Origin: a candidate division WOR-1 bacterium RIFOXYB2_FULL_46_45
GTDB lineage: Bacteria > Margulisbacteria > WOR-1 > XYC2-FULL-46-14
Reading direction: 5' to 3'
Length of the DNA: 64,000 bases
Assembly (NCBI GenBank): GCA_001771585.1
Contig: MEUE01000001.1
Span: 807,984-871,983 of the forward strand
Shown here: positions 21,355 to 62,861 of the stretch, piece by piece
How positions within the stretch are numbered: position 1 is the stretch's first letter
Layout of the letters: each line of letters begins with the position of its first letter
Notes under the pieces: model-generated
The model's input: only the letters and a program-made list of their open reading frames with translations
Databases searched by the model: none
What the model was told of the DNA's origin: nothing
Position numbers and translations under genes: made by a program

Positions 21355-21386
21355 ATATATATCGTGAATTTTGGATGAAAATTTCA
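21355..21386 (-). promoter_or_regulatory. sigma-28-like promoter for the HExxH gene
   Basis: Minus strand: TGAAATTTTC (21386-21377), 13 bases, then GATA (21363-21360) followed by TATATA. The same arrangement, with identical spacing, precedes four other unusual genes in the window. Confidence 0.75.
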
Positions 21387-21397
21387 ATAAATTCGTG

Positions 21398-21409
21398 TAC
21401 TATTAAGTC
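21398..21409 (+). promoter_or_regulatory. leaderless promoter of the GT2 gene
   Basis: TACTAT (21398-21403) ends six bases before the ATG at 21410. The box is weaker than the others of this type. Confidence 0.4.
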
Positions 21410-22087
21410 ATGTTATCCATCATAGCCCCCGCATTAAACGAAGGAAAAAACCTGCCGGAGCTGGCAGAGAGGATATTCAATTCGGTCCCAAAAGATTCCG
21501 AATTGATTATAGTCGATGACAATTCACAAGATAACACGGCTGAAACCGCCAAAAAGCTCTCCCAAAAATTCAATCTAACACTCCTCTCCCGCCCCAAGCG
21601 GCTGGGACTTTCTTCCGCCGTAATCGATGGGTTTAAACTCGCCAAAGGAAATATTTTGGCGGTGATCGACGCCGATCTCCAGCATCCGCCGGAAGCTTTG
21701 TCCGGAATGCTGGCAAGGATTGAGACCAATTGCGCCGATTTTGTCGTCGGCAGCCGCCTGGTTGCCGGCGGAGGATCAAAAGATTGGCCCTGGTACCGAA
21801 AAATCATCTCTCTTGTCGCGCGTATTCCGGCGATGCCTTTAACCAAAGTTATGGATTTGACCTCCGGTTTTTTTATGTTAAAAAAAGAGGTGATAGAAGG
21901 GGTTGCTTTGAACCCGATCGGCTTCAAGATCTGCCTTGAGATCCTCTGCCGGGGAAAATACCGGAGGGTAGAAGAATACCCGATTATCTTTGGGGAGAGG
22001 CGGCAGGGAAAAAGTAAACTCGGCTCAAAACAAACATTTGAATATCTGGTGCAATTAATGGGACTCTACCTCAAAAAAAAGGCATAG
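21410..22087 (+). CDS. GT2 glycosyltransferase, dolichol/polyprenol-phosphate mannosyltransferase type
   Basis: A 225-residue GT-A enzyme: LSIIAPALNEGKNLPELAER at the N-terminus, VDDNSQDNTAE near 37 (nucleotide-sugar Asp), and AVIDADLQHPPEAL near 82 (the DxD-type metal site). It resembles Dpm1-like enzymes that load a sugar onto a polyprenyl phosphate. No C-terminal membrane domain is present. The ArnT/PMT-type transferase at 31.2-32.5 kb uses such lipid-linked sugars, so the two could act in sequence. Confidence 0.85.
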   Translation: MLSIIAPALNEGKNLPELAERIFNSVPKDSELIIVDDNSQDNTAETAKKLSQKFNLTLLSRPKRLGLSSAVIDGFKLAKGNILAVIDADLQHPPEALSGMLARIETNCADFVVGSRLVAGGGSKDWPWYRKIISLVARIPAMPLTKVMDLTSGFFMLKKEVIEGVALNPIGFKICLEILCRGKYRRVEEYPIIFGERRQGKSKLGSKQTFEYLVQLMGLYLKKKA

Positions 22088-22206
22088 GCACAGGCATAGG
22101 CATAGGAAGGGAAAGGATAGGAAAGAAAAAAAGGAAAGGAAAAATATTATATTTATTTTCCTTTCCTTCGCCTTACCTGCGCCTACGCCTATGCCTCCGC
22201 CTTAAT
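22079..22206. repeat. long imperfect palindrome between convergent genes
   Basis: The left arm is built from AGGCATAGGC and AGGAAGGGAAAGGATAGG units; the right arm read in reverse gives AGGCATAGGCGTAGGCGCAGG and AAGGAAAGGAAAA. The AT-rich centre AAAAATATTATATTTATTTT closes the hairpin. It lies between the ends of the GT2 and DUF151 genes and could terminate both. GCCTAYGCCT units are shared with the S1 linker at 10.18 kb. Confidence 0.65.
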
Positions 22207-22211
22207 TCCCC

Positions 22212-22700
22212 CTAGTCTTTATTGTAATACTTGGTGAAATCTTCCGGCTTGAGGTTGCTGACGAATTCCTTGAACTTGCGGGCCTCTTCCGCGTCGCGGT
22301 CGGCATTGACCAGCTTGGCCTGCAGCATCACGTTTTCGGAGACAAAAATCGGCGTCTCGCCCCGCATCGCTAGAGCAATCGCGTCCGACGGCCGCGCGTC
22401 GATTGAAATTTTTTTCTCCCCCCGCATCAGTTCGATCACCGAAAAAAAGGTCCCGTTCTGAATTTCACTGATAACAACGCGATTGATCGTGCAGCCGGAT
22501 TTTTCAATAACATCTTTGAGCAGGTCGTGGGTCATCGGCCGGGGGGGCTTTATTCCTTGCAAAACCAGAGCGATTGAGGCGGCCTCAAAAATGCCGATCC
22601 AGATCGGCAGAAAATTCATCTCTTCGGGATCTCGTAAAAGGATCATCGGGGAGAGGTTCCGGGGGTCAAAACCGAGTCCGCCCACGGACATCTGGATCAT
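22212..22700 (-). CDS. bifunctional nuclease family (DUF151) protein
   Basis: A 162-residue member of the BFN/DUF151 family: LPIWIGIFEAASIALVLQGI, then RPMTHDLLKDVIEKSG and SIDARPSDAIALAMR, all strongly conserved. Some members have DNase/RNase activity in vitro; the bacterial role is not settled. The ATG overlaps the rplT stop as ATGA, placing it last in the thrS-infC-rpmI-rplT run. Confidence 0.9.
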   Translation of the reverse strand: MIQMSVGGLGFDPRNLSPMILLRDPEEMNFLPIWIGIFEAASIALVLQGIKPPRPMTHDLLKDVIEKSGCTINRVVISEIQNGTFFSVIELMRGEKKISIDARPSDAIALAMRGETPIFVSENVMLQAKLVNADRDAEEARKFKEFVSNLKPEDFTKYYNKD

Positions 22701-23044
22701 TGCGAAATAAACTCCACCAGTTTTTTGAACGCGGCATTGTCAAAAATTGCCAGGTCCGAAAGCATCTTGCGGTTTATCAAAACATTTTTCTTTTTTAACG
22801 CGTTAATAAATTTGCTGTAGGACAAGCCCAGCTCTTTTACCGCAATCCCGACTCGGGTGACCCAAAGCCGCCGCATATCCCGCTTGCGCAGGCGGCGGTC
22901 GCGGGTGGCGTGCTTCATCGCGTGGGTAACGGCCTCTTTGGAGACGCGGTAAAGCTTTTTCAGCGATCCGCGGAAACCCTTGGCCCGGTCAAAAACCTTT
23001 TTGTGGCGGCGGTGCCCCATCTTGCCGCGTTTTACTCTAACCAT
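22697..23044 (-). CDS. rplT: 50S ribosomal protein L20
   Basis: A 115-residue rRNA-binding protein of the large subunit, needed early in 50S assembly. MVRVKRGKMGHRRHKKVFDRAKGFRG is nearly consensus, as is LWVTRVGIAVKELGLSYS. It follows rpmI with an 8-base overlap in the classic infC-rpmI-rplT cluster. In several bacteria L20 represses this operon by binding its leader; no such leader structure is obvious here. Confidence 0.98.
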   Translation of the reverse strand: MVRVKRGKMGHRRHKKVFDRAKGFRGSLKKLYRVSKEAVTHAMKHATRDRRLRKRDMRRLWVTRVGIAVKELGLSYSKFINALKKKNVLINRKMLSDLAIFDNAAFKKLVEFISQ

Positions 23045-23234
23045 ATGGAAGCATCTCCTTTACTCTGCGAATATCGGTCGGGTGAACCAACAGGCCTCTT
23101 TTGTACTGCCGTTTCTTTTTCCGGCCCTTCCATTCCAAAAGATGCCGTGAATTGCTGTGCCGGGCGATGATCTTTCCGGAACCGGTTATCTTGAAACGTT
23201 TGGCCGCCGCTTTTCTCGTTTTTATTTTAGGCAT
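23037..23234 (-). CDS. rpmI: 50S ribosomal protein L35
   Basis: A 65-residue basic protein of the large subunit: MPKIKTRKAAAKRFKITGSG then KIIARHSNSRHLLEWKGRKKKRQ, close to consensus. It overlaps infC by 8 bases and rplT by 8, so the three are translationally coupled. Confidence 0.97.
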   Translation of the reverse strand: MPKIKTRKAAAKRFKITGSGKIIARHSNSRHLLEWKGRKKKRQYKRGLLVHPTDIRRVKEMLPYG

Positions 23235-23742
23235 GTTTTTTAGGCGATAAAATTATCACCATACTCCTTCCTTCCATCATCGGATTTTTCTCCGGGGTCC
23301 CCAGATCCACCACCGCGTCCAGCAGCTTCTGCAAGACCGCCCTCCCGATCTCTTTATGGGTCACTTCCCGCCCCCTGAAATAGACCGCCACTTTCACCTT
23401 GTTCCCTTTTTCAAGGAACTCGCGGGCCTGGCGGATCCGGACATTCAGGTCGTGATCCCCGATCTTAAAAGAGAGTTTAACCTCTTTTAAGACCCCCGCT
23501 TTTTGCGCTTTGCGGACCTCTTTTTCGTGCTTGGTGTCTTCGTATTTCAGTTTGCCAAAATCAATGATCCTGGCCACCGGCGGTTTGGCATTTGGAACAA
23601 TCAAGACCAGGTCTTTCCCCAGCTCTTGCGCCTGTCTTAGCGCGTCGATGGTTTTCAGAACTCCCAGCTGTCCTCCGTCCGGACCGATTACCCGCACCTC
23701 TGGAACTCTGATCCTGTCATTTACATAATAAAACTTGGCGAT
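23227..23742 (-). CDS. infC: translation initiation factor IF-3, probably started by AUC
   Basis: Prevents premature joining of the ribosomal subunits and checks the initiator tRNA. The frame contains YYVNDRIRVPEVRVIGPDGG followed by the two IF-3 domains and ends SMVIILSPKKHA. No ATG, GTG or TTG precedes the conserved VNDRIRVPEVRV segment in frame. The only sensible start is ATC at 23742 (then AKFYYVND), with AGGAG about seven bases upstream, giving 171 residues. Rare AUU/AUC-type starts are known for infC and underlie its autoregulation. A GTG at 23697 would remove about 15 conserved residues. Confidence 0.9.
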   Translation of the reverse strand: MAKFYYVNDRIRVPEVRVIGPDGGQLGVLKTIDALRQAQELGKDLVLIVPNAKPPVARIIDFGKLKYEDTKHEKEVRKAQKAGVLKEVKLSFKIGDHDLNVRIRQAREFLEKGNKVKVAVYFRGREVTHKEIGRAVLQKLLDAVVDLGTPEKNPMMEGRSMVIILSPKKHA

Positions 23743-23762
23743 ATGCTTCTCCTACTCTCCAA

Positions 23763-25948: not shown

Positions 25949-25987
25949 GTTATATTCCCTCCTAATGCTTAATCCTATCAGAAAACC

Positions 25988-26016: not shown

Positions 26017-26027
26017 TTGTGAAGCAA

Positions 26028-42263: not shown

Positions 42264-42297
42264 TGAAATTTTTAAGAAAAATCGACGATATACATAT
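42264..42297 (+). promoter_or_regulatory. sigma-28-like promoter of the 42.3 kb gene
   Basis: TGAAATTTTT (42264-42273), 13 bases, GATA (42287-42290). The ATG follows seven bases after GATA, so this message is also nearly leaderless. Confidence 0.78.
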
Positions 42298-44025
42298 ATG
42301 ACACCGCCAAATCCGATAGATCAACAGCTTATGCCTGCCCGCCAATTCGTAAGAATGCAGGAAAGAACATCAAAAAAAGGGAGGCCAAACTGTAAATGCA
42401 AGAAAAATAACAACTTTATCCTTGAGCCAAAATGCTCTTTCCCAAAAACAGAAAGCCGGCACAGAGACAAGGAGACCAGGGCATATCTTGCAGAAAGAAA
42501 TTCTATCCCCTACGGGATAAAAACCAATAGCCCCTTTTACCGCTTCTCTTTTTGCCCAAATCTAATAAATATGTTCAGAAGCCATGAAACTTTCTGGGAA
42601 ATGGCAGCTCAAGCCTCTGACTTGCCGCGAGTAAAAGAGACCAGAAAAATAAGGCTGCTCTACCCTGGCGCAGGCTCCCACCTGGCCCCCTTGGATCTCT
42701 TTCACAGCCTTATACAACAAGACAAAATCGATTACGCCAAGGCAATCTATACGGATATAGATCCGCACCAATTAGACACAATCAGGGATGCCCTTGCCAA
42801 GCTTGTAAGGGCAAAAATATACACCGATTTAAAGATCACCCCAAAAAATTATCCGCAGGGAGGGTTCGAAACAACCTTTTCTTTTTACTATCAGGGAAAA
42901 AGGATCGAACTGGTGTACGCCCTAAAAATGAGCGGGGAAGACTATTATAAAGAAGAATACCTGGCGGGCGCGGATGTATTGACAATCCACGATCCCTTCA
43001 ACAAATCAAAGGAGCCTTCTTATTCTTTGCTGAAAACTTATTTAAAGTCTCTGGCAAAATCGACAGCAGAAAACAGTCCGCTAATTATCATGGAAAACCT
43101 GAATGACGGCGGATGTTTTGGTGACTCGAAATATTTTGATCCGACCGTCCTGCCGGGAACCTGGACCAAAAACCCACATCCTTACGGCCACCGGGAAGAG
43201 ATCATGTTTGAAGCGGATTATTCACTGTTTACTTTTGGGGAAACCGGGAGGCACTGTTTTAATTCTTCCCTGACCTATCGGCCGGACTTGTCATTATGGA
43301 AAAACTTCTCTCCGGCCGAAATGCATGTCCTTACTTCTTTTCTGGCCAAGGAAGAAATAGATTTCTTCGTTGAGGTTGACGGAAAAGATGTCAATCTCCG
43401 CGACAATAAATCCGCAAAAGAAGCCGCTAAATTCGAAAAAACTTTTCGGTCTTTCTTTTTTGTGCTCCATAGGGCGACAAGAAGATTAGAAAAAATTAAT
43501 CCCGCTTTTGCAGGGAACCTTGCCCTGCGCACAATCCATTTTTATAAAAAAATGCAAACTCTTTATCCAGAGCTAATGGGAAGGACAAAAAACTATTTTG
43601 ACGACAGAATAACTTTTACCAGAACCAGCAACAAGGATCTCCCTTTGCCTCCGCAAGTCAAAGAACTTACTGTCGGCAGATGGAGCAAGCTTATATATCC
43701 CTATCCATTGCCCGAAAAAGGAAATCCAAAACTGCTGGAATCCCCAATGATATTTCCCAATAAGCAGATCGGTTATACCTATTATAATTTGCCATTGTTT
43801 GAGGGCCTCTTTGACAGCAAAAACAACTTGGTCGGACTGGCAAGGATACCGGAAAGGCCAAACACAGAGAAATCTCCGGAATACCTAAGGCTGGTTAACG
43901 GGAGATTTGTTGAAGCCCAAAGCATAGATTTTATTGCGGATTTTGATATTGTAAAAAGCGGAGTCTTTACAATTGTCCTGGATGATCCTCAAGGCAAAAA
44001 CATTAAAGGCCTGATAAGAAGATAA
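42298..44025 (+). CDS. 575-residue protein of unknown function under a sigma-28-like promoter
   Basis: No signal peptide or membrane segment. The basic N-terminus contains LMPARQFVRMQERTSKKG and four cysteines or so before residue 60. Near residue 120, RLLYPGAGSHLAPLDLF, then KAIYTDIDPHQLD, looks like the first two strands of a Rossmann or methyltransferase fold; MENLNDGGCFGDSKYF near 265 follows. I recognise no family. It converges with the caspase-like gene, only six bases between their stops, and both have the same promoter type. If it is an effector or phage-like protein, a nucleotide- or SAM-binding activity would be the first guess. Confidence 0.72.
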   Translation: MTPPNPIDQQLMPARQFVRMQERTSKKGRPNCKCKKNNNFILEPKCSFPKTESRHRDKETRAYLAERNSIPYGIKTNSPFYRFSFCPNLINMFRSHETFWEMAAQASDLPRVKETRKIRLLYPGAGSHLAPLDLFHSLIQQDKIDYAKAIYTDIDPHQLDTIRDALAKLVRAKIYTDLKITPKNYPQGGFETTFSFYYQGKRIELVYALKMSGEDYYKEEYLAGADVLTIHDPFNKSKEPSYSLLKTYLKSLAKSTAENSPLIIMENLNDGGCFGDSKYFDPTVLPGTWTKNPHPYGHREEIMFEADYSLFTFGETGRHCFNSSLTYRPDLSLWKNFSPAEMHVLTSFLAKEEIDFFVEVDGKDVNLRDNKSAKEAAKFEKTFRSFFFVLHRATRRLEKINPAFAGNLALRTIHFYKKMQTLYPELMGRTKNYFDDRITFTRTSNKDLPLPPQVKELTVGRWSKLIYPYPLPEKGNPKLLESPMIFPNKQIGYTYYNLPLFEGLFDSKNNLVGLARIPERPNTEKSPEYLRLVNGRFVEAQSIDFIADFDIVKSGVFTIVLDDPQGKNIKGLIRR

Positions 44026-44031: not shown

Positions 44032-45150
44032 TTACAGTCTTACACGCCCCTTATTTGCCCATGAAGCAAGATTTTGGGCTACCCTGGGAAGTTCATCAAC
44101 AATCGTTCTTAGTTCTCTTGTACGGTCCGATCCAATAAACCTGGACGCTTCAGATGGGAAATAGGTAAAAAACCTTAATGTCTTTATTGTTTCACTGCAA
44201 AGGCCCTCCCTTACCATGGCAAGAAAGTCTCTTCTAGAAGAACAAGCATCATTTAGCCTTCTATTTAATTCAATAAATTCTCTCAAAAAAGAATTCACGA
44301 ATTCTTTTTGCAGACGTCGATCATCAGACAATCTGTAAATTAATGATAAAGGACCAAGGTCGATATCTTCATTTTCAAGCATGGTACGCACCTCCCTTTC
44401 AAGGGTTAAAGGAAAAAATCGAGCCAGAAGTAAAAACCTCTCTAGTTTTTTTGGATATGGCTCCTCGCATTTGGTAAAAAGCAGTTCCGGCCCCACAACC
44501 AGAGGGCGCTGAAATTCTTGTCTATTAAAAATGAAATCAGGATTGCATAGCATTGATCTGTCCGCCTCCCTATAAGAATCCAACAGGGGCAACAGATATC
44601 CTGTTTTACCACAAGCCATAACAGCAAAATCATCCGTCAACAAACCTACTGTGAGCTGTCCCGTTTTTTCTGCTCTCGTAGCCGTAACAACCGAAACATT
44701 ATTTCCAATGCCTTTTAACCATTGCCCGGAGTGACAAGAAGAGACATGCAACAAACAGGGAAATTCCTCCGCTCCTCGACTTTTTTGAAACAATTGGGTA
44801 TCCATAATCTCCCTCTGACCAAGCACCTGCGTTTTTCCTGCCCGAATAAAATGTCTTCCTCCTTGATCGATATTCCCGTGTCCGATCAAAAAAATCATGG
44901 TTAATGCTTTATCAGGAACAGAAGACAGTGCATGCAAAAAACCCGCGGTATTCCCTTTGTAAATTTCAAATTCAAAGTTCGGAAAAAGACTCCCCATTAC
45001 TCTCGCACTCTTTGCCATATCGCCAGCCATTTTATTTTTTAGTGCTTTCCCTTCTCTGTCCCCTCCCAAAAAACCTATTAAACGGACAGGAACAGACTCC
45101 GTACGAATTTGCCAACCCATCTCTGTCCTTACAACCGATTGAATTGCCAT
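44032..45150 (-). CDS. caspase-like (clan CD) cysteine peptidase candidate
   Basis: A 372-residue soluble protein, start ATG 45150 with AAGGAGA six bases upstream. The pattern TMIFLIGHGNIDQGGRHFIR near residue 88 (His after a hydrophobic strand) and CLLHVSSCHSGQW near 137 (Cys after the next strand) is the His/Cys dyad arrangement of caspases, metacaspases, CHAT and C13 peptidases. The C-terminal ~170 residues are helical and charged. Transcribed from the promoter at 45218-45244, back to back with priA. A role in cell death, signalling or effector processing is possible. Family identity needs structure comparison. Confidence 0.7.
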   Translation of the reverse strand: MAIQSVVRTEMGWQIRTESVPVRLIGFLGGDREGKALKNKMAGDMAKSARVMGSLFPNFEFEIYKGNTAGFLHALSSVPDKALTMIFLIGHGNIDQGGRHFIRAGKTQVLGQREIMDTQLFQKSRGAEEFPCLLHVSSCHSGQWLKGIGNNVSVVTATRAEKTGQLTVGLLTDDFAVMACGKTGYLLPLLDSYREADRSMLCNPDFIFNRQEFQRPLVVGPELLFTKCEEPYPKKLERFLLLARFFPLTLEREVRTMLENEDIDLGPLSLIYRLSDDRRLQKEFVNSFLREFIELNRRLNDACSSRRDFLAMVREGLCSETIKTLRFFTYFPSEASRFIGSDRTRELRTIVDELPRVAQNLASWANKGRVRL

Positions 45151-45217
45151 AAAATGTCTCCTTGCTTTTTGGCGCAAAAATGCGCAATTTTATAATAATT
45201 GATCCTTATAGTATATA

Positions 45218-45244
45218 TATCTTTACATCTTTCAAAAAATTTCA
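45218..45244 (-). promoter_or_regulatory. sigma-28-like promoter of the caspase-like gene
   Basis: Minus strand: TGAAATTTTT (45244-45235), 13 bases, GATA (45221-45218), then TATATA. It overlaps the priA promoter on the other strand, so the two may exclude each other. Confidence 0.78.
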
Positions 45245-50258: not shown

Positions 50259-51176
50259 ATGCGCATTTTATTTATGGGAACTCCCGCCCCGGCGGCAAAA
50301 TGCCTGCAGGCGCTCCTTGATGCTGGAGAACAAATCGTCGCGGTGGTAACACAACCGGACCAAAAAGCCGGACGGGGCCTAAAAATAACCGAACCCCCGG
50401 TAAAACAATTGGCAAAACAATATCACATCCCGATTGAACAGCCGGAAAAACTGAAAGAGATCGACAAGCTCCGGGCTTACGATCCGGAATTGATTGTGAT
50501 TGTGGCTTACGGAAAAATCCTGCCGAAAGAATTGCTTGAAATCCCAAAATACGGGGCAATCAATGTCCACGCTTCTCTTCTCCCCAAGTATCGCGGGGCC
50601 GGCCCGATCCAGTGGGCGATCTTAAACGGGGAAAAAGAGACTGGGATCACCATCATGCAGGTTGTTCAAGAGCTGGATGCCGGAGATATTTTACTGCAGA
50701 AAAAAATCCCGATCGCTCCGGATGATACATCCGAAACTTTGAGCGAAAAACTTTTTGCCCTTGGAACGGAGCTATTAATTGATGCCGTTGGAAAGATTAA
50801 AAGGGGGACCATCACCGGGACGAAGCAAAAAGACCATGAGGCGACTATGGCGCCGCAATTAATGAAAGAAGCCGGAGAGATTGATTTTAGAAAAACAGCA
50901 GAGGAAGTTCACAATCAAATTAGGGCATTAATCCCCTGGCCGACCGCGCACACTTTTTATCACGGAAAAATACTCAAGCTCTTAAAATCTGAAATTGTTG
51001 CAAATAAAAAAGGGCTCCCCGGAGAAATTCTTGAGACCGATAAGGGCTTTACTGTTTCCTGCCGGGACGCGGCATTAAAAATCACGGAAGTTCAAATGGA
51101 AGGGAAGAGAAAAATGGCCGCCTCCGATTTTATATCGGGGCATAAGCTGAAAGAAATGGATATTTTACCGTCATAA
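50259..51176 (+). CDS. fmt: methionyl-tRNA formyltransferase
   Basis: Formylates the initiator Met-tRNA. A 305-residue enzyme with RILFMGTPAPAAKCLQALLD at the start, the formyl-THF domain motif NVHASLLPKYRGAGPIQWAI near 107, and the C-terminal OB domain after about 205. It works with def, from which it is split by the ATPase gene; only three bases separate it from that gene. Confidence 0.96.
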   Translation: MRILFMGTPAPAAKCLQALLDAGEQIVAVVTQPDQKAGRGLKITEPPVKQLAKQYHIPIEQPEKLKEIDKLRAYDPELIVIVAYGKILPKELLEIPKYGAINVHASLLPKYRGAGPIQWAILNGEKETGITIMQVVQELDAGDILLQKKIPIAPDDTSETLSEKLFALGTELLIDAVGKIKRGTITGTKQKDHEATMAPQLMKEAGEIDFRKTAEEVHNQIRALIPWPTAHTFYHGKILKLLKSEIVANKKGLPGEILETDKGFTVSCRDAALKITEVQMEGKRKMAASDFISGHKLKEMDILPS

Positions 51177-52991
51177 TGAACCTCTACCCATTTCTTTTAA
51201 TAACCTTCTTGTTCCGTCAGCTATGTCTTTAGCTCTTCTGGTGCTTCCTTCCATAATCTCCGGAAGATCAGGCGCAGATGCGTTCCAGTTTGTCGTGCTA
51301 TGAGGAGCATTTTGTGTTCCGGGGACGTTTATCCTCGTTGCTCTTGCAACTTCGGGATCACGATAGGCGGTATGCAATCCCCACAGGTCCATCAAGGCTA
51401 CGCTGACCAAGAGAGAATTCCCCGCCAGTATTGGCATAAGGGTGGCAGCATATAAAGGAGTGTTCATTTCATTGGGACTTGGCATCCTGGGCCATCCCAT
51501 ATGTTCGACGTATGCCGTTGCTTCCGCTTCTAATTCTGCTCTTGCCTGTGCGTTTGGGGCGTATCTGGCCGGTTCCATTAATTCATGAAGATGGAATGGG
51601 TGGTTGGTTGAATCGTGCACAGATGAACAGCCAAAAGAGAGCAACGGCCAGCTAGATGGAGGAATAAACGGCTGGCCATTTTCTGCATTTGGCCAGTCAC
51701 GTTCCCACCTCTCAACCGGCATGCGGGCAATTCCCAATTCTCCCATTAATCTTCTGATTCCGGGAACTTCCACCCCAAGGTCCTCTCCCCAGATAACCAT
51801 GCCGCTTGATTGCAGTGCTCCCAACATAAATCTTGCGCTTGGCATATATTTTTCCGGATCTAAACCATAATACCGAATGCAATTATAAATTTCTCTTCCA
51901 GTTTTAGTATCTGTTTTCCACATTAGATCAGAATCTAGCGGGATTCTGACAGGATCAGCCAGGCCCCAGGTGTGATCTGCCCGACCGGCCCAGACCCCCC
52001 TTTGTGCCATTAGAATTGCGGGCAGGGCAAAAGGGGTTGGGTCTTCCGTTACTTTAATTAAATTTCTTGGGTGGTTCCCCCAATACTGGCCTTCCAGTGC
52101 ATATTGGTCCGGCTCTGCCCCGGCAGCAAAATCAAGATGATAGTATTCTTGGTTTGCCCAGACGTCCGATGCTCCCATTCCGGGGAGGTAGGGGATATCC
52201 TCTATTATCCGAACCCCATGTTTTTCTTCGCATTCTCTTATTACTTCTTCCCATTGTGTGTGTGTTACCCATTGTTCAAAACGATAAAAAGTAGCCTCTT
52301 TTTGGTGTCTTCCCATAAATGCCTGAACTGTACGAGGATCATAGTCCCTAAGTCCGGCCGGCCACTCCTTCCAGTATTTGCTATCCTGATGGTCCCTTAT
52401 TACCATGAAAGGGACATATTCATCCTTCAACCACTTCACATGTCTTTGACAGAAATCCCTGAAGGCCTTGGTCTCTTGTGTGTCCGTTCCTTTTGAATAA
52501 ACCGAGTAGAATTCTTCAAATGCCAACCTTAAAACCTTATATTTGAAGGCCATTGCCCCTTCATAATCAACTCTTGCAGTGCTATTTAATTTTGAGATTA
52601 TATTTTTGTTCTCGCGTATATAAGTGAGAACTCTCTCAGCATTAAAGAAAGGATTATTCTTTTCGACTAACCTTAAGATCGAAACATAGGCCGGCTCCAG
52701 TGCTTTTAAGCTGACTGCGGAATAAGGGCAGATATCTCCGATACCAAGCCTAAAAGGAGGCAAAACCTGATGGAAGCCTATTCCGATCGATCGTAAATAT
52801 CCGGCAAACTTAAAAACATCGGAGAAATCTCCTGTTGAGATGCTCGATTGGGTATGGAGAGAAAAAATAGGCGCCTGCACTGCTACCCCGTAATCAACTG
52901 TCCCCTCCCGCAGGACCATTTTCCAGGCGGGGGCCGAAGGGCTGCTTAATAATGTTTTTACAATATTTTGCGGAACAGACCTGACTTGCAT
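51171..52991 (-). CDS. GH77-like (4-alpha-glucanotransferase-related) protein under a sigma-28-like promoter
   Basis: A 606-residue soluble protein, start ATG 52991 (MQVRSVPQNIVKTLLSS). Several blocks resemble MalQ: STGDFSDVFKFAGYLRSIGI and GFHQVLPPFRLGIGDICPYS near 50-90, VRIIEDIPYLPG near 265, WGEDLGVEVPGIRRLMGELG near 400 (the acid/base Glu region) and SSVHDSTNHPF near 455. I could not find the usual RIDHF nucleophile block, so activity may differ. It lies apart from other glycogen genes. Codon use shows many AGA/AGG arginine codons. Confidence 0.72.
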   Translation of the reverse strand: MQVRSVPQNIVKTLLSSPSAPAWKMVLREGTVDYGVAVQAPIFSLHTQSSISTGDFSDVFKFAGYLRSIGIGFHQVLPPFRLGIGDICPYSAVSLKALEPAYVSILRLVEKNNPFFNAERVLTYIRENKNIISKLNSTARVDYEGAMAFKYKVLRLAFEEFYSVYSKGTDTQETKAFRDFCQRHVKWLKDEYVPFMVIRDHQDSKYWKEWPAGLRDYDPRTVQAFMGRHQKEATFYRFEQWVTHTQWEEVIRECEEKHGVRIIEDIPYLPGMGASDVWANQEYYHLDFAAGAEPDQYALEGQYWGNHPRNLIKVTEDPTPFALPAILMAQRGVWAGRADHTWGLADPVRIPLDSDLMWKTDTKTGREIYNCIRYYGLDPEKYMPSARFMLGALQSSGMVIWGEDLGVEVPGIRRLMGELGIARMPVERWERDWPNAENGQPFIPPSSWPLLSFGCSSVHDSTNHPFHLHELMEPARYAPNAQARAELEAEATAYVEHMGWPRMPSPNEMNTPLYAATLMPILAGNSLLVSVALMDLWGLHTAYRDPEVARATRINVPGTQNAPHSTTNWNASAPDLPEIMEGSTRRAKDIADGTRRLLKEMGRGSL

Positions 52992-52998
52992 GCATTTT

Positions 52999-53025
52999 TA
53001 TCGCAGGCATTTTTTAAAAATTTCA
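52999..53025 (-). promoter_or_regulatory. sigma-28-like promoter of the GH77-like gene
   Basis: Minus strand: TGAAATTTTT (53025-53016), 13 bases, GATA (53002-52999). The ATG at 52991 comes seven bases later. Confidence 0.78.
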
Positions 53026-53667: not shown

Positions 53668-53720
53668 TTGACAGACCCTATCTATAGGATATATTATGAC
53701 ATCCCCACTAGATATAGCGG
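53668..53720 (+). promoter_or_regulatory. nrdR-nrdD operon promoter with two NrdR boxes
   Basis: TTGACA (53668-53673), 18 bp, TATTAT (53692-53697). Box 1, ACCCTATCTATAGGAT (53675-53690), fills the spacer; box 2, CCACTAGATATAGCGG (53705-53720), lies just past the transcription start. They match ACACWATATATWGTGT at about 12 and 13 of 16 positions, and the 30-bp offset fits the usual three-turn spacing. NrdR should repress its own operon. Confidence 0.72.
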
Positions 53721-53725
53721 GTCTT

Positions 53726-54172
53726 ATGAAATGTCCGGTATGCCAAAAAGATGACGATAAGGTACTTGAATCGCGCTCGATTGACGAGGGCGAGCAGGTC
53801 CGCAGGAGGCGCGAATGCAACGCCTGCGGCAACCGTTTTACCTCTTACGAAAGCGTTGAAAAACGGCCGCTGATGGTGATCAAAAAAGACGAGCGGCGCG
53901 AAGAGTTTTCCCGCCAAAAAGTTTTGACAGGGATTTTGAAGGCCTGCGAAAAAAGGCCGGTCTCAATGCAGGCGATCGAAGAGCTGGTGGATAAAGTGGA
54001 AAAAGAAGCGCACCGGCTGGGGAAAGAAATTTCTTCAAAGCAGGTCGGGAATGTAATAATGGAAGAACTGCAATTAATCGACGAAGTCGCGTATATCCGT
54101 TTCGCTTCGGTCTATAAACAATTTAAAGACGCCAATGAATTTGTAAAAGTAGTAAAGGAGGTATCGTTATGA
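53726..54172 (+). CDS. nrdR: transcriptional repressor NrdR
   Basis: Controls ribonucleotide reductase genes in response to nucleotide state. From ATG 53726 it has 148 residues: zinc ribbon MKCPVCQKDDDKVLESRSID with CNACGNRF, followed by an ATP-cone (RPLMVIKKDERREEFSRQKV, then GILKACEKRPVS). An ATG 30 bases upstream would prepend ten residues not found in the family. The stop overlaps the nrdD start as ATGA. Two candidate binding sites lie in the promoter. Confidence 0.95.
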   Translation: MKCPVCQKDDDKVLESRSIDEGEQVRRRRECNACGNRFTSYESVEKRPLMVIKKDERREEFSRQKVLTGILKACEKRPVSMQAIEELVDKVEKEAHRLGKEISSKQVGNVIMEELQLIDEVAYIRFASVYKQFKDANEFVKVVKEVSL

Positions 54173-56286
54173 ATCCAGTAGCCGTTCTTCCCGAAAAAGC
54201 CCCGGTTGAAGCGAGAGAGGACGATTCAACCGACTTGTCCCTTTTTGTCCGTACGTCTTCCGAGAATATTGTCGGCTGGGACAGGGAGAAGATCGTCTCC
54301 GCCCTGGTGCGCGAGACCAGCTTGACCCGCGACATCGCCGAAATTATCGGACATGAAGTGGAACGCCAGATCCAGGCCATGAGGATCAAAGGGATCACCT
54401 CCCCCTTGATCCGCGAACTGGTCGACGTAAAACTTTTGGAATACGGGCTTGAAGAAGCGCGGCGCCGCCACACCCGCTTGGGAACGCCGCTTTATGACGT
54501 GAAAGAAATTATTTTAAACCAGAACAAGGAGAACGCCAATGTCCCGCACGGGCCGGAAGCGACCAATTTGACCCTGGCCGAAAATATTAAAAAAGAATTC
54601 GCGCTCCTGCATGTCTTCACCCCCGATATCGCCGACGCGCATATGAGAGGAGATCTCCACCTGCACGATTTGGGCTTTATCGACCGCCCCTACTGCTCCG
54701 GACAATCGGTTGAGTACGTAAAAAAATTCGGACTGGATTTGCCAAACGCGCTCTCAATCGCCAAGCCGGCCAAGCACGCCGACGTTCTTCTGGCGCAGAT
54801 GGTAAAATTCTCGGCCGCCCTGCAGGGAGTTTTTGCCGGCGCGATCGGCTGGGACGCGGTCAACGTTTTCTTTGCCCCGTTTTTGGTCGGCATGTCGGAC
54901 AAAGATGTGAAACAAGTGGCGCAGATGATGATCTACGAATATTCACAGCAAGCGGTGGCGCGCGGCGGACAGGCGATCTTTTCCGACATCAACCTTTATT
55001 GGGAGATGCCGAAACACTTTGCGTCGGTTCCCGCGATCGGACCGGGAGGACAGTATACCGGAAAAGTTTATTCCGACTACATCAAAGAATCGCAGAAATT
55101 TGTCTGGGCGCTATTTGATGTATATCGGGACGGCGATGGCTCCGGACGCCCCTTCTTCTTCCCCAAACCGCTGGTGCATATGACCGAAAGATTCTTCCAA
55201 GCCGAGGGGCACGAAAAATTTCTCCGCCACATCTCCGAAGTCGCTTCGGTGATGGGTAACACCTATTTTGTCTTCGACCGCGGAGACACCGCCAAAATTT
55301 CCGAATGCTGCCGGTTATCGTTTAAACTGGAACAGTCGGATCTGGACGACGCGCGCGAGCCGTGGAGGATGAGATATTCCGCCCTGCAAAATGTCACCGT
55401 CAATCTCCCCCGGCTGGCCTTCCGCGCGGCGGGAGACGACCAGAAGTTTTTTACGCTCCTAAGCGGAGCGCTGGAAATGGTAGCCAAGGCGCATATTCAA
55501 AAGAAAAAATTTATCGAAGAGATTTTGGCGCAGGGAGCAAACGGACCGCTCTCCATGCTGGCGATGAAACGCGACGGCCAGCCGTATTTGAGGATGTGGA
55601 GGGTTAGTTATTTGGTCGGGATCCTGGGACTTAACGAAGTGGTCCAGTTCCATCTTGGAAAAGAACTTCATGAGAGCCGCGAGGCTTTGAAGTTCGGCCT
55701 GAAGGTGATCTCCATGATGAAAATAAAATGCGAAGAGCTGACCAAAAAGCACGGGATGCACTTTGTGCTGGAGCAGACCCCGGCCGAATCGACCGCCTAC
55801 CGCTTTGCCAAACTCGACCTGCAGAATTTCAAAAAAGAGGCCCAAGCGGTGGTCAAGGGAAATCTTTCCAGCAACGAAATTTACTACACCAATTCGACTT
55901 ATTTTAATGTTTCCAACCGGATGAATCCGGTCGACCGGGTAAAACAGGAAGGGCTCTTCCACCCGCTTATCGACGCGGGAGCCCTAACCCATGTCTGGAT
56001 GGGGGAATCGCGGCCGGACCCGGAATCGATCGCCAATTTTGTGATCAAGACGATGCGCCAGACTGACAACGCCCAGGTCGCTTTTTCGCCCGAGTTCACC
56101 TCCTGCAACGACTGTTCAAAAATTGTCCGCGGACTGCGAAGCACCTGCCCCTCCTGTTCTTCCGAAAATATTGAAGGGATCACCAGGATCACCGGTTATT
56201 TTTCAAAGATCAACGGCTGGAACAAAGGGAAGAGCGGAGAACTCAAAGACCGCTTCCGAACCGGAGGGCTGTTAAGTGCCAACTGA
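54169..56286 (+). CDS. nrdD: anaerobic (class III) ribonucleoside-triphosphate reductase, copy 1
   Basis: Makes dNTPs without oxygen by a glycyl radical. The 705-residue chain starts with an ATP-cone (LFVRTSSENIVGWDREKIVS). Active-site segments are DRPYCSGQSVEYVKKFGLD near 174 and FDRGDTAKISECCRLSFKLE near 370. A zinc ribbon (SCNDCSKIVRGLRSTCPSCS) leads to the radical loop GITRITGYFSK near 674. GGAGG precedes the start. No activase (nrdG) is in the window. A redoxin two genes on suggests a thioredoxin-like reductant and not formate. Confidence 0.95.
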   Translation: MNPVAVLPEKAPVEAREDDSTDLSLFVRTSSENIVGWDREKIVSALVRETSLTRDIAEIIGHEVERQIQAMRIKGITSPLIRELVDVKLLEYGLEEARRRHTRLGTPLYDVKEIILNQNKENANVPHGPEATNLTLAENIKKEFALLHVFTPDIADAHMRGDLHLHDLGFIDRPYCSGQSVEYVKKFGLDLPNALSIAKPAKHADVLLAQMVKFSAALQGVFAGAIGWDAVNVFFAPFLVGMSDKDVKQVAQMMIYEYSQQAVARGGQAIFSDINLYWEMPKHFASVPAIGPGGQYTGKVYSDYIKESQKFVWALFDVYRDGDGSGRPFFFPKPLVHMTERFFQAEGHEKFLRHISEVASVMGNTYFVFDRGDTAKISECCRLSFKLEQSDLDDAREPWRMRYSALQNVTVNLPRLAFRAAGDDQKFFTLLSGALEMVAKAHIQKKKFIEEILAQGANGPLSMLAMKRDGQPYLRMWRVSYLVGILGLNEVVQFHLGKELHESREALKFGLKVISMMKIKCEELTKKHGMHFVLEQTPAESTAYRFAKLDLQNFKKEAQAVVKGNLSSNEIYYTNSTYFNVSNRMNPVDRVKQEGLFHPLIDAGALTHVWMGESRPDPESIANFVIKTMRQTDNAQVAFSPEFTSCNDCSKIVRGLRSTCPSCSSENIEGITRITGYFSKINGWNKGKSGELKDRFRTGGLLSAN

Positions 56287-58363
56287 ACTGCTGGAGAGAA
56301 CAGTTTCGGCGGAAGAGACGACCGATCTTTCGGTTTTTGTCCGCACTTCAACCGACAATATTGTCGGCTGGGACAAAAGCAAGATTGTCGACGCTTTAAC
56401 CAAAGAGACCGGGATAAAACCCGAGATCGCCAACATCATCGCGGTTGAAGTTGAAAAGCAGATCCAGGCGCTGGATATTAAAAATATCACTGCCCCCTTG
56501 ATCCGCGAACTGGTGGATGTCAAACTTTTGGAATACGGGCTGGAAGACGCCAGAAGAAAGCACACCCGGCTGGGAACACCGGTTTACGACGTGAAGAGGA
56601 TGATGCACCGCAAAAATAAGGAGAACGCCAACACTCCGCATACCCCCGAAGCGACCAACCTGACCCTGGCCGAAAACATTAAAAAAGAATTCGCCCTGCT
56701 CAACGTTTTTTCTCCCGAGGTCTCCGACGCGCATATGCAGGGATTGATCCATATCCACGATCTCGGTTTTGTCGACCGCCCCTACTGCTCCGGCCAGTCG
56801 GTTGAATATATTAAAAAGTTCGGCCTGGATCTCCCCGATGCCCCCTTTTCCGCCAAGCCGGCCGCCGACGCGGACGAGCTGGTCGACCACCTGGTAAAAT
56901 TTTCTCTGGCGCTCCACGGACACTTTGCCGGCGCGATCGGCTGGGACGCGGTCAACATGTTTATCGCTCCTTATATTGAGGGGCTGGGGAAAGGGCATAT
57001 CAAAAAACTGGCCCGAAAGCTGGTGACCGAATTCGCCTTCATCGCAGTCTCCCGCGGCGGGCAGGGACTCTTCTCCGATTTGAATATTTATTATGAAATT
57101 CCGAAACATTTTGAAAACACCCCGGCAATCGGCCGCGGAGGGGAATTGACCGGAAAAAATTATTCCGAATACAAGCGGGAGGCACAGGATTTTGCCTCCG
57201 CCATGTTTGAAGTTTTCCTTGAGGGAGACGCAGCGGGACGCCCCTTCTTTTTTCCCAAACCGCTGGTTCACATGACCGAAAAGTTTTTTAAAGAAGAAGG
57301 TCACGAGGCTTTTCTTTCCTTGATTTCCGAAGTCGCCTCGACTATGGGGAACACTTATTTTGTCTTTGACCGCGGCGATACCGCCAAAATTTCCGAATGC
57401 TGCCGGCTCTCCTTTAAACTGGAACAGTCGGATTTGGACGACGCCAGGGAACCGTGGAAGATGAGGTATTCGGCGATCCAGAATGTCACCATCAACCTTC
57501 CCCGGGTCGCCTATCTGGCAAATAAGGACGAAGCCTCCCTGTTTGAAGTCCTGCATCAGGCGATGGAGGTGGCGGCCAAAAGCCACCTGCAAAAAAGGGC
57601 TTTTATCTCCGACTTGCTCAAAGAAGGGAAAGAAGGTCCGCTGGCGCTTTTGGCTAACAACCGCGACGGCGAGACCTATCTGCGAATGCGGCGTTCAACC
57701 CACCTGATTGGGATTTTAGGGCTGAACGAATTGGCACAATACCACACCAATTCCGAATTGCACGAAGGGAACGCGGCCCTCAAGCTGGGCTTGAAGGTGG
57801 TCTCTTTTATGAAATTAAACTGCGAAGAACTTTCCAAAAAATACAAGATAAATTTTGTCCTGGAGCAGACCCCGGCCGAATCGACCGCCTACCGCTTTGC
57901 CAAACTCGACCAGGAACATTATCCCAATGAATCAAAAAATGTGCTTAAGGGAAACCCGGAAAACAAAGAAATTTATTACACCAATTCCACTTATTTTAAT
58001 GTCCGCCATCAAATGAACCCGATTGAACGGGTGAAACAGGAAGGGCTTTTTCATCCGCTAATTGACGCGGGGGCTTTGACCCACATTTGGCTTGGAGAAT
58101 CGCGACCAAATCCGCAATCGATCGCCAATTTTGTGATCAAAACTTTCCGCGAGACGCAGAACAGCCAGATCGCCTTTTCTCCGGAGTTCACCTCTTGCGG
58201 CGACTGCGGAAAAACTTCCCGCGGGTTGAAGGAGAAATGCTCTTTCTGCGATTCTTTGGAAGTTGAAGGGATCACCAGGATTACCGGCTATTTTTCGAGG
58301 ATTCCGGGATGGAACAAAGGAAAAATCGGCGAATTAAAGGATCGGGTCAGACAGGAGGTATAA
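56276..58363 (+). CDS. nrdD: anaerobic ribonucleoside-triphosphate reductase, copy 2
   Basis: A 695-residue paralogue of the preceding gene; the two align along their whole lengths and most catalytic segments are identical (PYCSGQSVEYIKKFGLD near 169, GDTAKISECCRLSFKLE, RITGYFSRIPGWNKGK near 668). ATP-cone and zinc ribbon are both kept, so it seems active. They differ mainly in the regulatory half and in a helix around residues 200-290. GTG start with GGAGGG six bases before, overlapping copy 1 by 11 bases. Tandem NrdD copies are unusual; a heterodimer or division of substrates is possible. Confidence 0.94.
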   Translation: MPTELLERTVSAEETTDLSVFVRTSTDNIVGWDKSKIVDALTKETGIKPEIANIIAVEVEKQIQALDIKNITAPLIRELVDVKLLEYGLEDARRKHTRLGTPVYDVKRMMHRKNKENANTPHTPEATNLTLAENIKKEFALLNVFSPEVSDAHMQGLIHIHDLGFVDRPYCSGQSVEYIKKFGLDLPDAPFSAKPAADADELVDHLVKFSLALHGHFAGAIGWDAVNMFIAPYIEGLGKGHIKKLARKLVTEFAFIAVSRGGQGLFSDLNIYYEIPKHFENTPAIGRGGELTGKNYSEYKREAQDFASAMFEVFLEGDAAGRPFFFPKPLVHMTEKFFKEEGHEAFLSLISEVASTMGNTYFVFDRGDTAKISECCRLSFKLEQSDLDDAREPWKMRYSAIQNVTINLPRVAYLANKDEASLFEVLHQAMEVAAKSHLQKRAFISDLLKEGKEGPLALLANNRDGETYLRMRRSTHLIGILGLNELAQYHTNSELHEGNAALKLGLKVVSFMKLNCEELSKKYKINFVLEQTPAESTAYRFAKLDQEHYPNESKNVLKGNPENKEIYYTNSTYFNVRHQMNPIERVKQEGLFHPLIDAGALTHIWLGESRPNPQSIANFVIKTFRETQNSQIAFSPEFTSCGDCGKTSRGLKEKCSFCDSLEVEGITRITGYFSRIPGWNKGKIGELKDRVRQEV

Positions 58364-58366
58364 AAA

Positions 58367-60120: not shown

Positions 60121-60132
60121 GGCAAAATTATA
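60121..60132 (-). promoter_or_regulatory. leaderless promoter of the AMIN/NAGPA gene
   Basis: Minus-strand TGC-TATAAT (hexamer 60132-60127) ends six bases before ATG 60120. A divergent TAAGAT box (60144-60149) ends seven bases before the trpC ATG. Confidence 0.6.
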
Positions 60133-60156
60133 GCACGATATGATAAGATTGGGATT

Positions 60157-60921
60157 ATGATCCTTGATGAAATAATCAAAAACAAACGGGAAGAAATCAA
60201 AAACCTTAAAATCCCTGCTTGCCCCGAGCGAAGTCGAGGGGCTATTCCCTTTAAATCTGCCTTGCAGCGCTCCGACAAAATCAAATTGATCGCCGAAGTC
60301 AAAAAACAATCCCCCTCTGCGGGGGTAATCTGCCCGAATTTTGATCCGGTTAAAATTGCAAAGATTTATGAAAAGGCAGGGGCCTCTGCGATCTCTGTTT
60401 TGACTGACCAAAAATTTTTCGGCGGTTCAATTGAAGACCTGAAAAAGGTCAAAGCGGCGGTAAAAATCCCGGTCCTGCGCAAAGATTTTATTATCGATGA
60501 AAAACAAATATACGAATCCATGGCGGCCGGGGCGGACGCGATTTTGTTGATCGTGAAAGTTTTGGGGCTGCAACAATTGAAAGAGTTCCTCAAGATAACC
60601 GAAAAGCTAAAGATGGACGCGCTGGTTGAAATCCACAATTCGGACGAGGCGGAGATGGCCCTTGAAGCCGGGGCTGAAATTATTGGGATTAACAATCGTG
60701 ATCTGCAGACCTTCCGGGTTGATTTCAAGAACACTTTAGGCCTGATCAAAAAGTATCCGGAATTGAAAAACAGAATCCTCGTCTCCGAAAGCGGGATAAA
60801 AAATTCAAAGCAGGTCTCCGAGCTTCATGCCGCCGGCGTCTCGGCGATTTTGGTTGGGGAGAGCCTGCTTAAAGCAAAAGATATCTCTGCTAAAATTGCG
60901 GAATTAATCGGCTTATCATAA
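60157..60921 (+). CDS. trpC: indole-3-glycerol phosphate synthase with an in-frame repeat insert
   Basis: A step of tryptophan synthesis. A 254-residue TIM barrel: MILDEIIKNKREEIKNLK, IKLIAEVKKQSPSAGVICPN near 45, ILRKDF-type VLRKDFIIDEKQIYES near 107, EIHNSDEAEMALEAGAEIIG with GINNRDLQTFRVD, and SESGIKNSKQVSELHAAGVS. Residues 21-28 (ACPERSRG) come from a palindromic repeat at 60221-60242 placed in a variable N-terminal loop. No other trp genes are nearby. Confidence 0.95.
   Translation: MILDEIIKNKREEIKNLKIPACPERSRGAIPFKSALQRSDKIKLIAEVKKQSPSAGVICPNFDPVKIAKIYEKAGASAISVLTDQKFFGGSIEDLKKVKAAVKIPVLRKDFIIDEKQIYESMAAGADAILLIVKVLGLQQLKEFLKITEKLKMDALVEIHNSDEAEMALEAGAEIIGINNRDLQTFRVDFKNTLGLIKKYPELKNRILVSESGIKNSKQVSELHAAGVSAILVGESLLKAKDISAKIAELIGLS
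60221..60242. repeat. CPERSRG repeat inside trpC
   Basis: A 22-bp imperfect palindrome beginning GCCCCGAGCGAAG and ending TCGAGGGGC. Repeats that read CPERSRG or, on the other strand, RLRSGQAG are common in environmental genomes. The reverse-strand reading here is indeed RLRSGQAG. Confidence 0.75.
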
Positions 60922-60940
60922 AAGGCCCTCCGCGCAGAAA

Positions 60941-62347
60941 TTACTCCCAAGATGAGTCAAAAATAAAATTGCCGCCCAAAGATTCAAGATTACTTAAAGT
61001 AACTCCGCACAAATCATCGTGCTCGGATTTTAATCTCTTAATCAGCCATTCCAATATCACAACTTTTTTGGCTGTTCTATCCAACACAAGATTATATCTT
61101 TTTATTGCTTCAAAAGCGGCACGCAATTTTTCTCTATAATACATATTATTGCAAGAAAGCGCATAAGCCGCAATAATATCGGCAATCTGCTCAATTTTTT
61201 CTTCAGAAAGAAGCTCCTTTCTTTGAAGTCTATTTTCAAGAGCCAGGACAAAAACCAAATAACCTGCAAACCCATTCTGAAAATCATGCCCTTTGGCTCT
61301 TTGCGCGGTCAAATCAAGATTATCCCTTGTCATTCTTCTTGATAATTCCCGGAAAAAAACCAACAATAAGACATCATCATTAATCACTTCTAAATTTATC
61401 CTTAAAAGATCATAAAAACCGGCTTTGCCAAGCCCTTTATTTGGCGAATCGGCAACAGCACATTCCACATATTTGAGCGCTCCCTCAAGATCCTTTTCTC
61501 TCAATAACCTACTAACTTCATGAAAATGATTTTGTAATCTTTCGAACTTTCCTTCTGTCTCTTTGTTTTGATCATAGTGATAATAATTACGCAAAAGCTC
61601 ATCCACTTTTCTTGCTTGTGATCCCTTTTCGATTATCCATAAAGGGGTATGAATAAGCTTTTCTTCCCCTTTAATAATTAGTAATTCTCCTGTTTCTCTT
61701 GCTCTTTCTAATTCTGCCAATTTAATCCAAAAAAAATTTCGGCCAAATCTACCAATAAAACGATCTCTTAACTCTGTAGGAAGATCATTTTGATCAGAAA
61801 AAATTGAAAGAAAGGGATTGGCAAATGTATATGGAAAAACCAAAATCCCATCATCAAAGGGGGTTCCTTGCGATATTAAGGCTGTAACATCTCTTTCACT
61901 AATAGGAATGCGGCGCCATTTTGGAAAGATTGCAACAACCGTTTCAGGAATTGGCGATAAATATTTTCCGTAACAATCGACACTACCTGAATAAACCCTA
62001 TGAAGAGACAAATCATCATCAAACACCGTATTCCCATGCAAAATAAACGACCCCACCCTTTCACACCTATAAGCTTCAGCGAAGCCCATCTGCCGGCCAT
62101 AGGCTGGAAAAACGGTAATTCTTCTCTTAAGTTCGGGAGATAAACCCCTAAAAGGTTCGGCGGACAACAGTTTTGCTGGAGAAGTATGGTTAATGACAAC
62201 ATATTTTCCGGTCCTCTCCAACTGCTCAAAATTAACATTTGAAAAGGGAGGGCCCTTAACTGCAACAACAGCACTGCGGGCAATGCTATAAACTCTTGCC
62301 GGTATGCTTCTATAAGCCGCTCCGAAATCAATTGATCTCATATTCAA
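60941..62347 (-). CDS. 468-residue protein of unknown function, second gene of a sigma-28-like transcript
   Basis: No signal peptide or clear membrane segment. The N-terminus MNMRSIDFGAAYRSIPARVY and the following YSIARSAVVAV are basic and amphipathic. The middle (GKYVVINHTSPAKLLS ... LVFPYTFANPFLSIF) faintly recalls an acyltransferase NH-x4 block but lacks its Asp, so I do not call it. The C-terminal half is helical, possibly TPR-like (LLREKDLEGALKYVECAVAD). It starts 29 bases after the TPR gene ends and is probably in the same transcript. The shared IPAR string with that gene is notable. Confidence 0.68.
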   Translation of the reverse strand: MNMRSIDFGAAYRSIPARVYSIARSAVVAVKGPPFSNVNFEQLERTGKYVVINHTSPAKLLSAEPFRGLSPELKRRITVFPAYGRQMGFAEAYRCERVGSFILHGNTVFDDDLSLHRVYSGSVDCYGKYLSPIPETVVAIFPKWRRIPISERDVTALISQGTPFDDGILVFPYTFANPFLSIFSDQNDLPTELRDRFIGRFGRNFFWIKLAELERARETGELLIIKGEEKLIHTPLWIIEKGSQARKVDELLRNYYHYDQNKETEGKFERLQNHFHEVSRLLREKDLEGALKYVECAVADSPNKGLGKAGFYDLLRINLEVINDDVLLLVFFRELSRRMTRDNLDLTAQRAKGHDFQNGFAGYLVFVLALENRLQRKELLSEEKIEQIADIIAAYALSCNNMYYREKLRAAFEAIKRYNLVLDRTAKKVVILEWLIKRLKSEHDDLCGVTLSNLESLGGNFIFDSSWE

Positions 62348-62376
62348 CTATCATTTTTTAATTTTGGCTCATTTTT

Positions 62377-62814
62377 TTATGGATAAGGTCGAACTTTATA
62401 CCACGTACTTATAGGAGGGATCTCTATACCCTTTATTGCATCTTCCAGTTTACTTGTTGCCCGCCTATATTCCTTTAAAGCTAAAATCCCCTTATCCAAA
62501 TCAGTTGCTATTTCAAAAGAATTCCTCGCCGTGGAAAGTTCTCTTTCCATTAATTGTGCCAACCCCAAATTAAACCATAAAACAGGAAGCTCATTGGGGA
62601 ACTCGAGAGTGGCGTTATACAATATATTTTTGGCTTCTGTATAATTACCCGACATTAAGTATGCCAGCCCCAAATTATTTAATCTTGCTGCCGCAGGATA
62701 ATTGCCCTTAAACAAAAAACGTAATCCTCTCTCTCCAAAGAACATAGAGTCAGGGAATTTCCTGGCTAATTTGCCCGAACATCTCGCTGGAATAAATCTG
62801 GACACTTTTAACAT
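62377..62814 (-). CDS. small TPR protein under a sigma-28-like promoter
   Basis: A 145-residue protein. After the N-terminus MLKVSRFIPARCSGKLARKF come about two and a half TPR repeats (AARLNNLGLAYLMSGNYTEA, then VLWFNLGLAQLMERELSTAR). It has no signal peptide. GGGAGGG lies nine bases before the ATG. It is the first gene of a two-gene unit with the 468-residue protein, and could be its chaperone or adaptor. Confidence 0.72.
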   Translation of the reverse strand: MLKVSRFIPARCSGKLARKFPDSMFFGERGLRFLFKGNYPAAARLNNLGLAYLMSGNYTEAKNILYNATLEFPNELPVLWFNLGLAQLMERELSTARNSFEIATDLDKGILALKEYRRATSKLEDAIKGIEIPPISTWYKVRPYP

Positions 62815-62834
62815 TTTTCAACCCTCCCAATTAT

Positions 62835-62861
62835 TATCTTTGCGTTTTTCCAAAAATTTCA
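62835..62861 (-). promoter_or_regulatory. sigma-28-like promoter of the TPR operon
   Basis: Minus strand: TGAAATTTTT (62861-62852), 13 bases, GATA (62838-62835), then ATAAT. Unlike the other copies it leaves room for a leader with a ribosome binding site. Confidence 0.78.

Follow-up and report, generated by a model that had tools for sequence, protein, structure and literature searches.

A genome-wide sigma-28-type promoter motif in a WOR-1 bacterium and its possible link to a flagellum-derived apparatus

Why do five scattered genes of a bacterium read here only as a genome share one promoter-like sequence, and what would turn them on? The question is raised by a stretch of 64,000 nucleotides from candidate division WOR-1 bacterium RIFOXYB2_FULL_46_45 (contig MEUE01000001.1, positions 807,984 to 871,983), referred to below as the window (G+C content, 46.9%). 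A preliminary description of the window had pointed to five copies of TGAAATTTTY-N13-GATA, each directed at a gene that did not look like ordinary housekeeping, and had compared them with the promoters of the flagellar sigma factor FliA. All five were found, exact, at the positions and on the strands that it gave (Table 1), where a dinucleotide model expects about 0.006. The suspected regulon did not stay confined to these five genes: written as GAAATTTT-N14-GATA, the motif occurs 53 times in the genome (1.70 Mb in four contigs, 99.5% complete).

For this form, the dinucleotide model predicts 1.4 copies in the genome, against the 53 observed, and 0.05 in the window, against 5; the reversed pattern, used as a control, was found once. 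Allowing up to one mismatch brought the genome count to 127, compared with 16 for the control. In the window, a search with two mismatches added just two sites to the five exact ones where 3.9 were expected in all, so it is the exact matches that carry the signal. The word GAAATTTT itself occurs 20 times in the window, and in all five cases in which a GATA follows 8 to 20 bases on, the spacer is exactly 14 bases. The DNA read beyond the window comprised stretches around motif sites and operons. Around all 53 exact sites it was examined for open reading frames (ORFs), and for at least 52 of them an ORF on the same strand starts no more than about 100 bp downstream, which disposes of the objection that the motif might be scattered inside genes. 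In three places, two motif sites facing apart share one intergenic gap in the manner of divergent promoters (L271, C1:459.6 kb; L274, C1:612.8 kb; L122, C3:56.7 kb; L and G numbers are our labels for loci and genomes, and C numbers those for contigs).

An alignment of the 53 exact sites, made without further assumptions, added several positions to the motif. The base 5' of it is T in every site, though the pattern did not require one there; the base directly before GATA is C in 35 of the 53, and the sequence after GATA is A/T rich. At the eighth base after GATA, 51 sites have A or G, mostly preceded by a pyrimidine. In 17 of the 53, an ATG starts on or adjoining this eighth base, at a distance of 7 or 8 bases from GATA, leaving no space for a Shine-Dalgarno sequence, which many genes at the other sites have. 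The simplest reading is that the eighth base would be +1 and that these 17 mRNAs would be leaderless. Counted from this predicted start, TGAAATTTT occupies -34 to -26 (the invariant T being -34), GAAATTTT occupies -33 to -26, and (C)GATAA occupies -12 to -7. The order and spacing of the elements fit the Escherichia coli FliA layout TAAAGTTT-N11-GCCGATAA, and the likeness to FliA promoters drawn at the outset holds to the base.

The motif is also conserved. Taking class membership and completeness of genomes as labelled in the genome collection used, we found exact copies in each of the 30 other class genomes (2 to 122 copies; controls, 0 to 3). Among the 43 remaining genomes of the phylum, the count is 0 to 10, save in two members of a single genus, where it is 38 and 20 and nearly every copy has CGATA; in genomes outside the phylum it is 0 to 7, about equal to controls. 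A second form, GAAATTT-N8-TTYTRAC-GATA, occurs 14 times in this genome (for example, at C1:459579, C1:622151, and C3:56703) and is present in 24 of the 31 class genomes, with no control hits; sites of this form likewise lie upstream of ORFs.

Given the motif, its geometry, and its conservation, we regard it as practically certain that TGAAATTTT-N14-(C)GATAA is a sigma-28-type promoter motif. Its predicted regulon comprises at least 53 transcription units in the genome and probably 100 or more, the latter figure being an estimate for which the one-mismatch sites were examined in part. That the motif is instead an operator for a transcription factor, or a product of chance in AT-rich intergenic DNA, is hardly credible. 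Its AT richness and the AAAATAACCT-like stretch before several copies would suit such an origin, but the motif always points toward a gene, and its -35/-10 spacing and purine +1 are conserved. Chance, or an artefact of AT-rich DNA, was rejected on the 53 sites against a single control hit and on the dinucleotide expectations, and an operator was judged unlikely on the distance to the ATG, fixed at 7 to 8 bases in 17 genes. The AAAATAACCT-like stretch, directly 5' of the -35 element in L027, L121, L124, L125, L129, L135, L280, L282, and L287, may serve as an UP element or as the site of an activator.

What the motif would control was assessed by Pfam scans of the genes downstream of its sites (some fetched stretches clip genes, and start codons were picked by rule). 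Regulon members include Ser/Thr kinases (L010, L014), a PP2C phosphatase (L013), an ADP-ribosylglycohydrolase (L277), two NtrC-type activators and other response regulators (L006, L133, L012), a GNAT acetyltransferase (L131), an alpha/beta hydrolase (L127), an AAA ATPase (L121), GH8 (L017) and GH77 (window) enzymes, a phosphoglucomutase (L285), and topoisomerase I (L117). The matches at L003 and L005 were to ARMT1-like (weak) and N-terminal asparagine amidohydrolase families, and many regulon proteins have no Pfam family. The idea that the targets lie outside housekeeping does not hold for all of them, as the GH77 enzyme of the window and topoisomerase I and the response regulators elsewhere show. 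None of the downstream genes scanned by Pfam is flagellar, and the basal-body operon described below has no clear motif; flagellar genes were accordingly rejected as the chief targets. The activators at L006 and L133 are closely related, of the NtrC type acting with sigma-54, and both are predicted leaderless members of the regulon, which suggests a further layer of control.

Which factor would read the motif? The sigma factors of the genome are RpoD, a FliA/WhiG-like protein of 222 to 248 amino acids (aa), a 203-aa protein with a FliA-like region 4, and two short ORFs. The expected FliA/WhiG-type candidates are thus present, and there are two of them; FliA/WhiG (TIGR02479) is the best NCBIfam match for both. 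The gene of the 222- to 248-aa sigma sits within the basal-body operon, between flgJ and flgB. For region 4 of the 203-aa sigma, the best PDB match is FliA, and in many genomes, this one not among them, its gene is near an apparatus-type FlhA gene on the same contig. We consider it very likely, on these resemblances, that one or both of them read the motif. An alignment of their contact regions did not single out the reader. The 222- to 248-aa sigma is weakly favoured because G001, a genome only 90% complete, has 122 motif copies and no detectable 203-aa sigma; the 203-aa sigma has in its favour the likeness of its region 4 to FliA. The second form of the motif is possibly the target of the second of these FliA-like sigmas. 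Directly upstream of the 203-aa sigma gene, and coupled to it, lies an ORF of about 70 aa (65 to 73 aa) that is conserved in the class, with a basic start and a conserved end stretch, PILRRFWKFTRD (seen in L246, L250, L259, and L260; here upstream of C3:140513, L245). It is a candidate anti-sigma factor. Of the two short ORFs, one is a sigma that we take to be of the extracytoplasmic function type; the other, of 114 aa at C4:104449-104703 (L034), holds only an RpoD-like sigma region 4.

The absence of flagellar genes, noted at the outset, is true of the window and not of the genome, which carries flagellar-type genes elsewhere. One operon, running from C3:19846 down to 10097, reads flgG-flgA-flgH-flgI-flgJ-sigma-flgB-flgC-fliE-fliF-fliG-fliH-fliI-fliJ (flgJ and fliJ were named by position and likeness across genomes). 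A second locus (C3:248-257 kb) holds, by Pfam, fliK-like, flgF-like, fliM, fliP, fliR, flhB, and flhA genes and, by eye, FliN-, FliO-, and FliQ-like ORFs; its FlhB has NPTH. The parts kept are the MS ring, P/L rings, rod, ATPase complex, export gate, and FlhB/FliK switch. Since the genes for FlgB, FlgC, FlgG, FlgH, and FlgI are present, the apparatus does not fall under the definition of an injectisome, which has no rod or P/L rings. Flagellin (PF00669) is absent from all 31 class genomes and present in 8 others of the phylum. Among the matches listed, the Flg_bbr_C proteins of the class are rod sized only and none is hook sized, while those listed for flagellated relatives also include frames of 407 to 864 aa, as hook and hook-associated proteins would be. 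FliG has its N and M domains only, without the C-terminal motor domain (172 aa here; 153 to 186 aa in four other class genomes). A simple scan found no sigma-54 promoter for the basal-body operon.

The missing flagellin and the truncated FliG could mean that this is a decaying flagellum, the promoters being remnants of a motility regulon. We hold this to be very improbable: the same operon order and a short FliG are met again and again in the class; the motif is both frequent and well defined, with targets other than motility genes; and flagellated relatives keep the system beside a true flagellum. The order of the basal-body operon is intact in the class genomes examined and recognisable in four genomes outside the class, among them G034 and G037, where flagellin, FlgM, and canonical FliA are found as well. 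In a tree of FlhA, flagellar and apparatus copies split with 100/100 support, and the second copies of flagellated genomes group with those of nonflagellated ones. To judge from tree and gene order, the apparatus is an ancient separate system that coexists with true flagella in relatives within the phylum.

Whether regulon products could leave the cell by this apparatus was approached through their N termini. The first 30 residues of about 73 regulon proteins were compared with those of 102 controls, genes taken both in the window and in other stretches. Arginine makes up 8.7% of these residues in the regulon and 4.7% in the controls (P = 6e-8), acidic residues make up 7.0% and 10.1%, respectively, and the fall in acidic residues below the level of the remaining protein is more marked in the regulon (P = 7e-7). 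The same trend was seen in 30 motif-downstream proteins, nearly all from other class genomes. Several enzymes carry an extra stretch ahead of their domain, which begins at residue 41 in the GH77 protein, 36 in phosphoglucomutase, and 74 in the alpha/beta hydrolase. Arginine-rich, acid-poor N termini and such extra stretches would suit a type III export signal.

On balance, we think it rather likely that these observations reflect a sigma-28-type regulon run by the FliA-family sigma factor or factors of the flagellum-derived apparatus, part of whose products are exported. The basal-body and gate genes would be made first, from other promoters. Once the rod was finished and the FlhB/FliK switch turned, the FliA-like sigma would be set free or become active and would transcribe the late genes, as in a true flagellum. 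Here, the late genes would encode no filament but unknown proteins, peptidase-, kinase-, phosphatase-, and transferase-like enzymes, and regulators, and part of the set would leave the cell through the apparatus by means of the N-terminal signal. That sigma release is coupled to assembly of the basal structure, an argument by analogy, seems to us evenly balanced. Export of many regulon products through the apparatus is a more tentative proposal, and of the same tentative standing is the wider one of a class-wide, rod-only, filamentless descendant of the flagellum that would serve as a dedicated export or injection machine, with its own sigma-28 factor or factors and dozens of substrates, several with eukaryote-type domains, and that would stand beside a true flagellum in flagellated members of the phylum. 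Among the responses offered in the preliminary description, the effector response suits the wider evidence best, as a proposal and not as something proven.

The main rival, in our estimate somewhat improbable, leaves export out: the regulon would be a broad sigma-28 one tied to life stages, a global switch of growth state, as in Bdellovibrio, in a cell whose basal apparatus has a different job. The mixed content of the regulon, with response regulators, topoisomerase I, phosphoglucomutase, and glucan enzymes, fits such a switch, and there is precedent in Bdellovibrio, where 92 of 140 attack-phase promoters carry the FliA motif, many of them belonging to nonflagellar genes (PMC3627812). Against it speak the N-terminal bias, repeated in relatives, a sigma gene fixed within the basal-body operon, and a FlhB/FliK substrate switch kept where hook and filament proteins were not seen (the hook among the matches listed).

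Several points weigh against the export-linked regulon. Topoisomerase I, response regulators, and a lipoprotein-like GH8 enzyme are unlikely type III cargo. The N-terminal signal is statistical, and its controls are neighbouring genes, unmatched for unknown-protein status. There are two candidate sigmas for one motif, and neither reaches the curated TIGR02479 cut-off of 189.6 bits (143 for the 222- to 248-aa sigma, 73.7 for the 203-aa one), which FliA of most flagellated relatives passes, scoring over 206; by sequence the two are relatives of FliA, not certified members of the family. FlgM (PF04316), present in flagellated relatives, was not found in the genome, though small or divergent forms could escape, and the anti-sigma candidate is named from gene position only. 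The basal-body operon shows no clear sigma-28-type motif, and the transcript starts are predictions from the sequence.

The five promoters of the window and their genes are collected in Table 1. The GH77 protein does not reach the curated cut-offs set for NCBIfam malQ-type models. Elsewhere in the window (53696-58363, plus strand), an NrdR-like ORF precedes two long ORFs (705 and 695 aa) that belong to one family, overlap by a few bases, and are probably duplicated ribonucleotide reductase genes.

Table 1. Sigma-28-type promoters of the window, all exact matches to the motif, and the genes beneath them
Feature	Coordinates	Strand	Product or sequence	Remarks
Promoter 1	21360..21386	-	TGAAATTTTC-N13-GATA	Leadered; start about 33 bp downstream
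Gene under promoter 1	19758..21326	-	522 aa; HEAGH (zinc peptidase-like) motif by eye	No Pfam family
Promoter 2	42264..42290	+		ATG 7 bp after GATA; leaderless
Gene under promoter 2	42298..44025	+	575 aa; unknown	Start codon on inferred +1; no Pfam/NCBIfam family
Promoter 3	45218..45244	-		
Gene under promoter 3	44032..45177	-	381 aa (372 aa if ATG at 45150); caspase-like by GHG...SSCHSG motif only	No Pfam/NCBIfam family; structure model mean pLDDT 42, unusable
Promoter 4	52999..53025	-		ATG 7 bp after GATA; leaderless
Gene under promoter 4	51171..52991	-	606 aa; 4-alpha-glucanotransferase (GH77)	PF02446, E = 1e-68; domain from residue 41
Promoter 5	62835..62861	-		
First gene under promoter 5	62377..62814	-	145 aa; TPR protein	TPR_2, E = 4e-8
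Second gene under promoter 5	60941..62347	-	468 aa; unknown	Same strand, 29-bp gap; no Pfam/NCBIfam family

If the export-linked reading is true, the motif marks, across the genome, the late genes of a machine that derives from the flagellum but has stopped making a filament, and candidate substrates of an undescribed export system can be listed from DNA for a lineage that is represented here by genomes alone. The same reading has a bearing on the change from flagellum to secretion system, the rod-and-ring, filamentless form being old, phylum-wide, and coexistent with true flagella. The findings suggest that an old motility programme now serves something else, possibly protein export. No description of such a system was met in the literature searched, coverage of which was incomplete.

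Among known systems, the FliA-FlgM circuit of E. coli and Salmonella shares the promoter layout, a FliA-family sigma, and the FlhB/FliK switch, whereas here FlgM was not found, the two FliA-like sigmas score below cut-off, and there are no filament genes. The apparatus has in common with both flagellum and injectisome a homologous export gate, ATPase complex, and MS ring; unlike the injectisome, it keeps the flagellar rod and P/L rings, and unlike the flagellum, it is without flagellin and the FliG motor domain, with no hook-sized protein among the matches listed. Chlamydia trachomatis likewise uses sigma-28 promoters without a flagellum, but for only two targets, tsp and hctB (PMC12282069), compared with at least 53 sites here. 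In Bdellovibrio bacteriovorus, FliA has been proposed as the attack-phase switch, with the motif TTAAG-N16-CCGATA, and FliA-type promoters likewise precede many nonflagellar genes, including those for proteases and uncharacterised proteins; that organism builds a full flagellum, the genes of which the regulon includes (PMC3627812), whereas here flagellin is absent, no scanned target is flagellar, and one third of the exact sites give predicted leaderless starts. In Campylobacter jejuni, too, nonflagellar proteins, the Feds and Cia, are under sigma-28, and several are secreted via the flagellar export apparatus; there, four Fed proteins accompany a working flagellum (PMC5223770), while here there are dozens of candidate genes, no flagellin, and a predicted export. 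By analogy, this Fed/Cia set (PMC5223770) would be the closest functional parallel for export.

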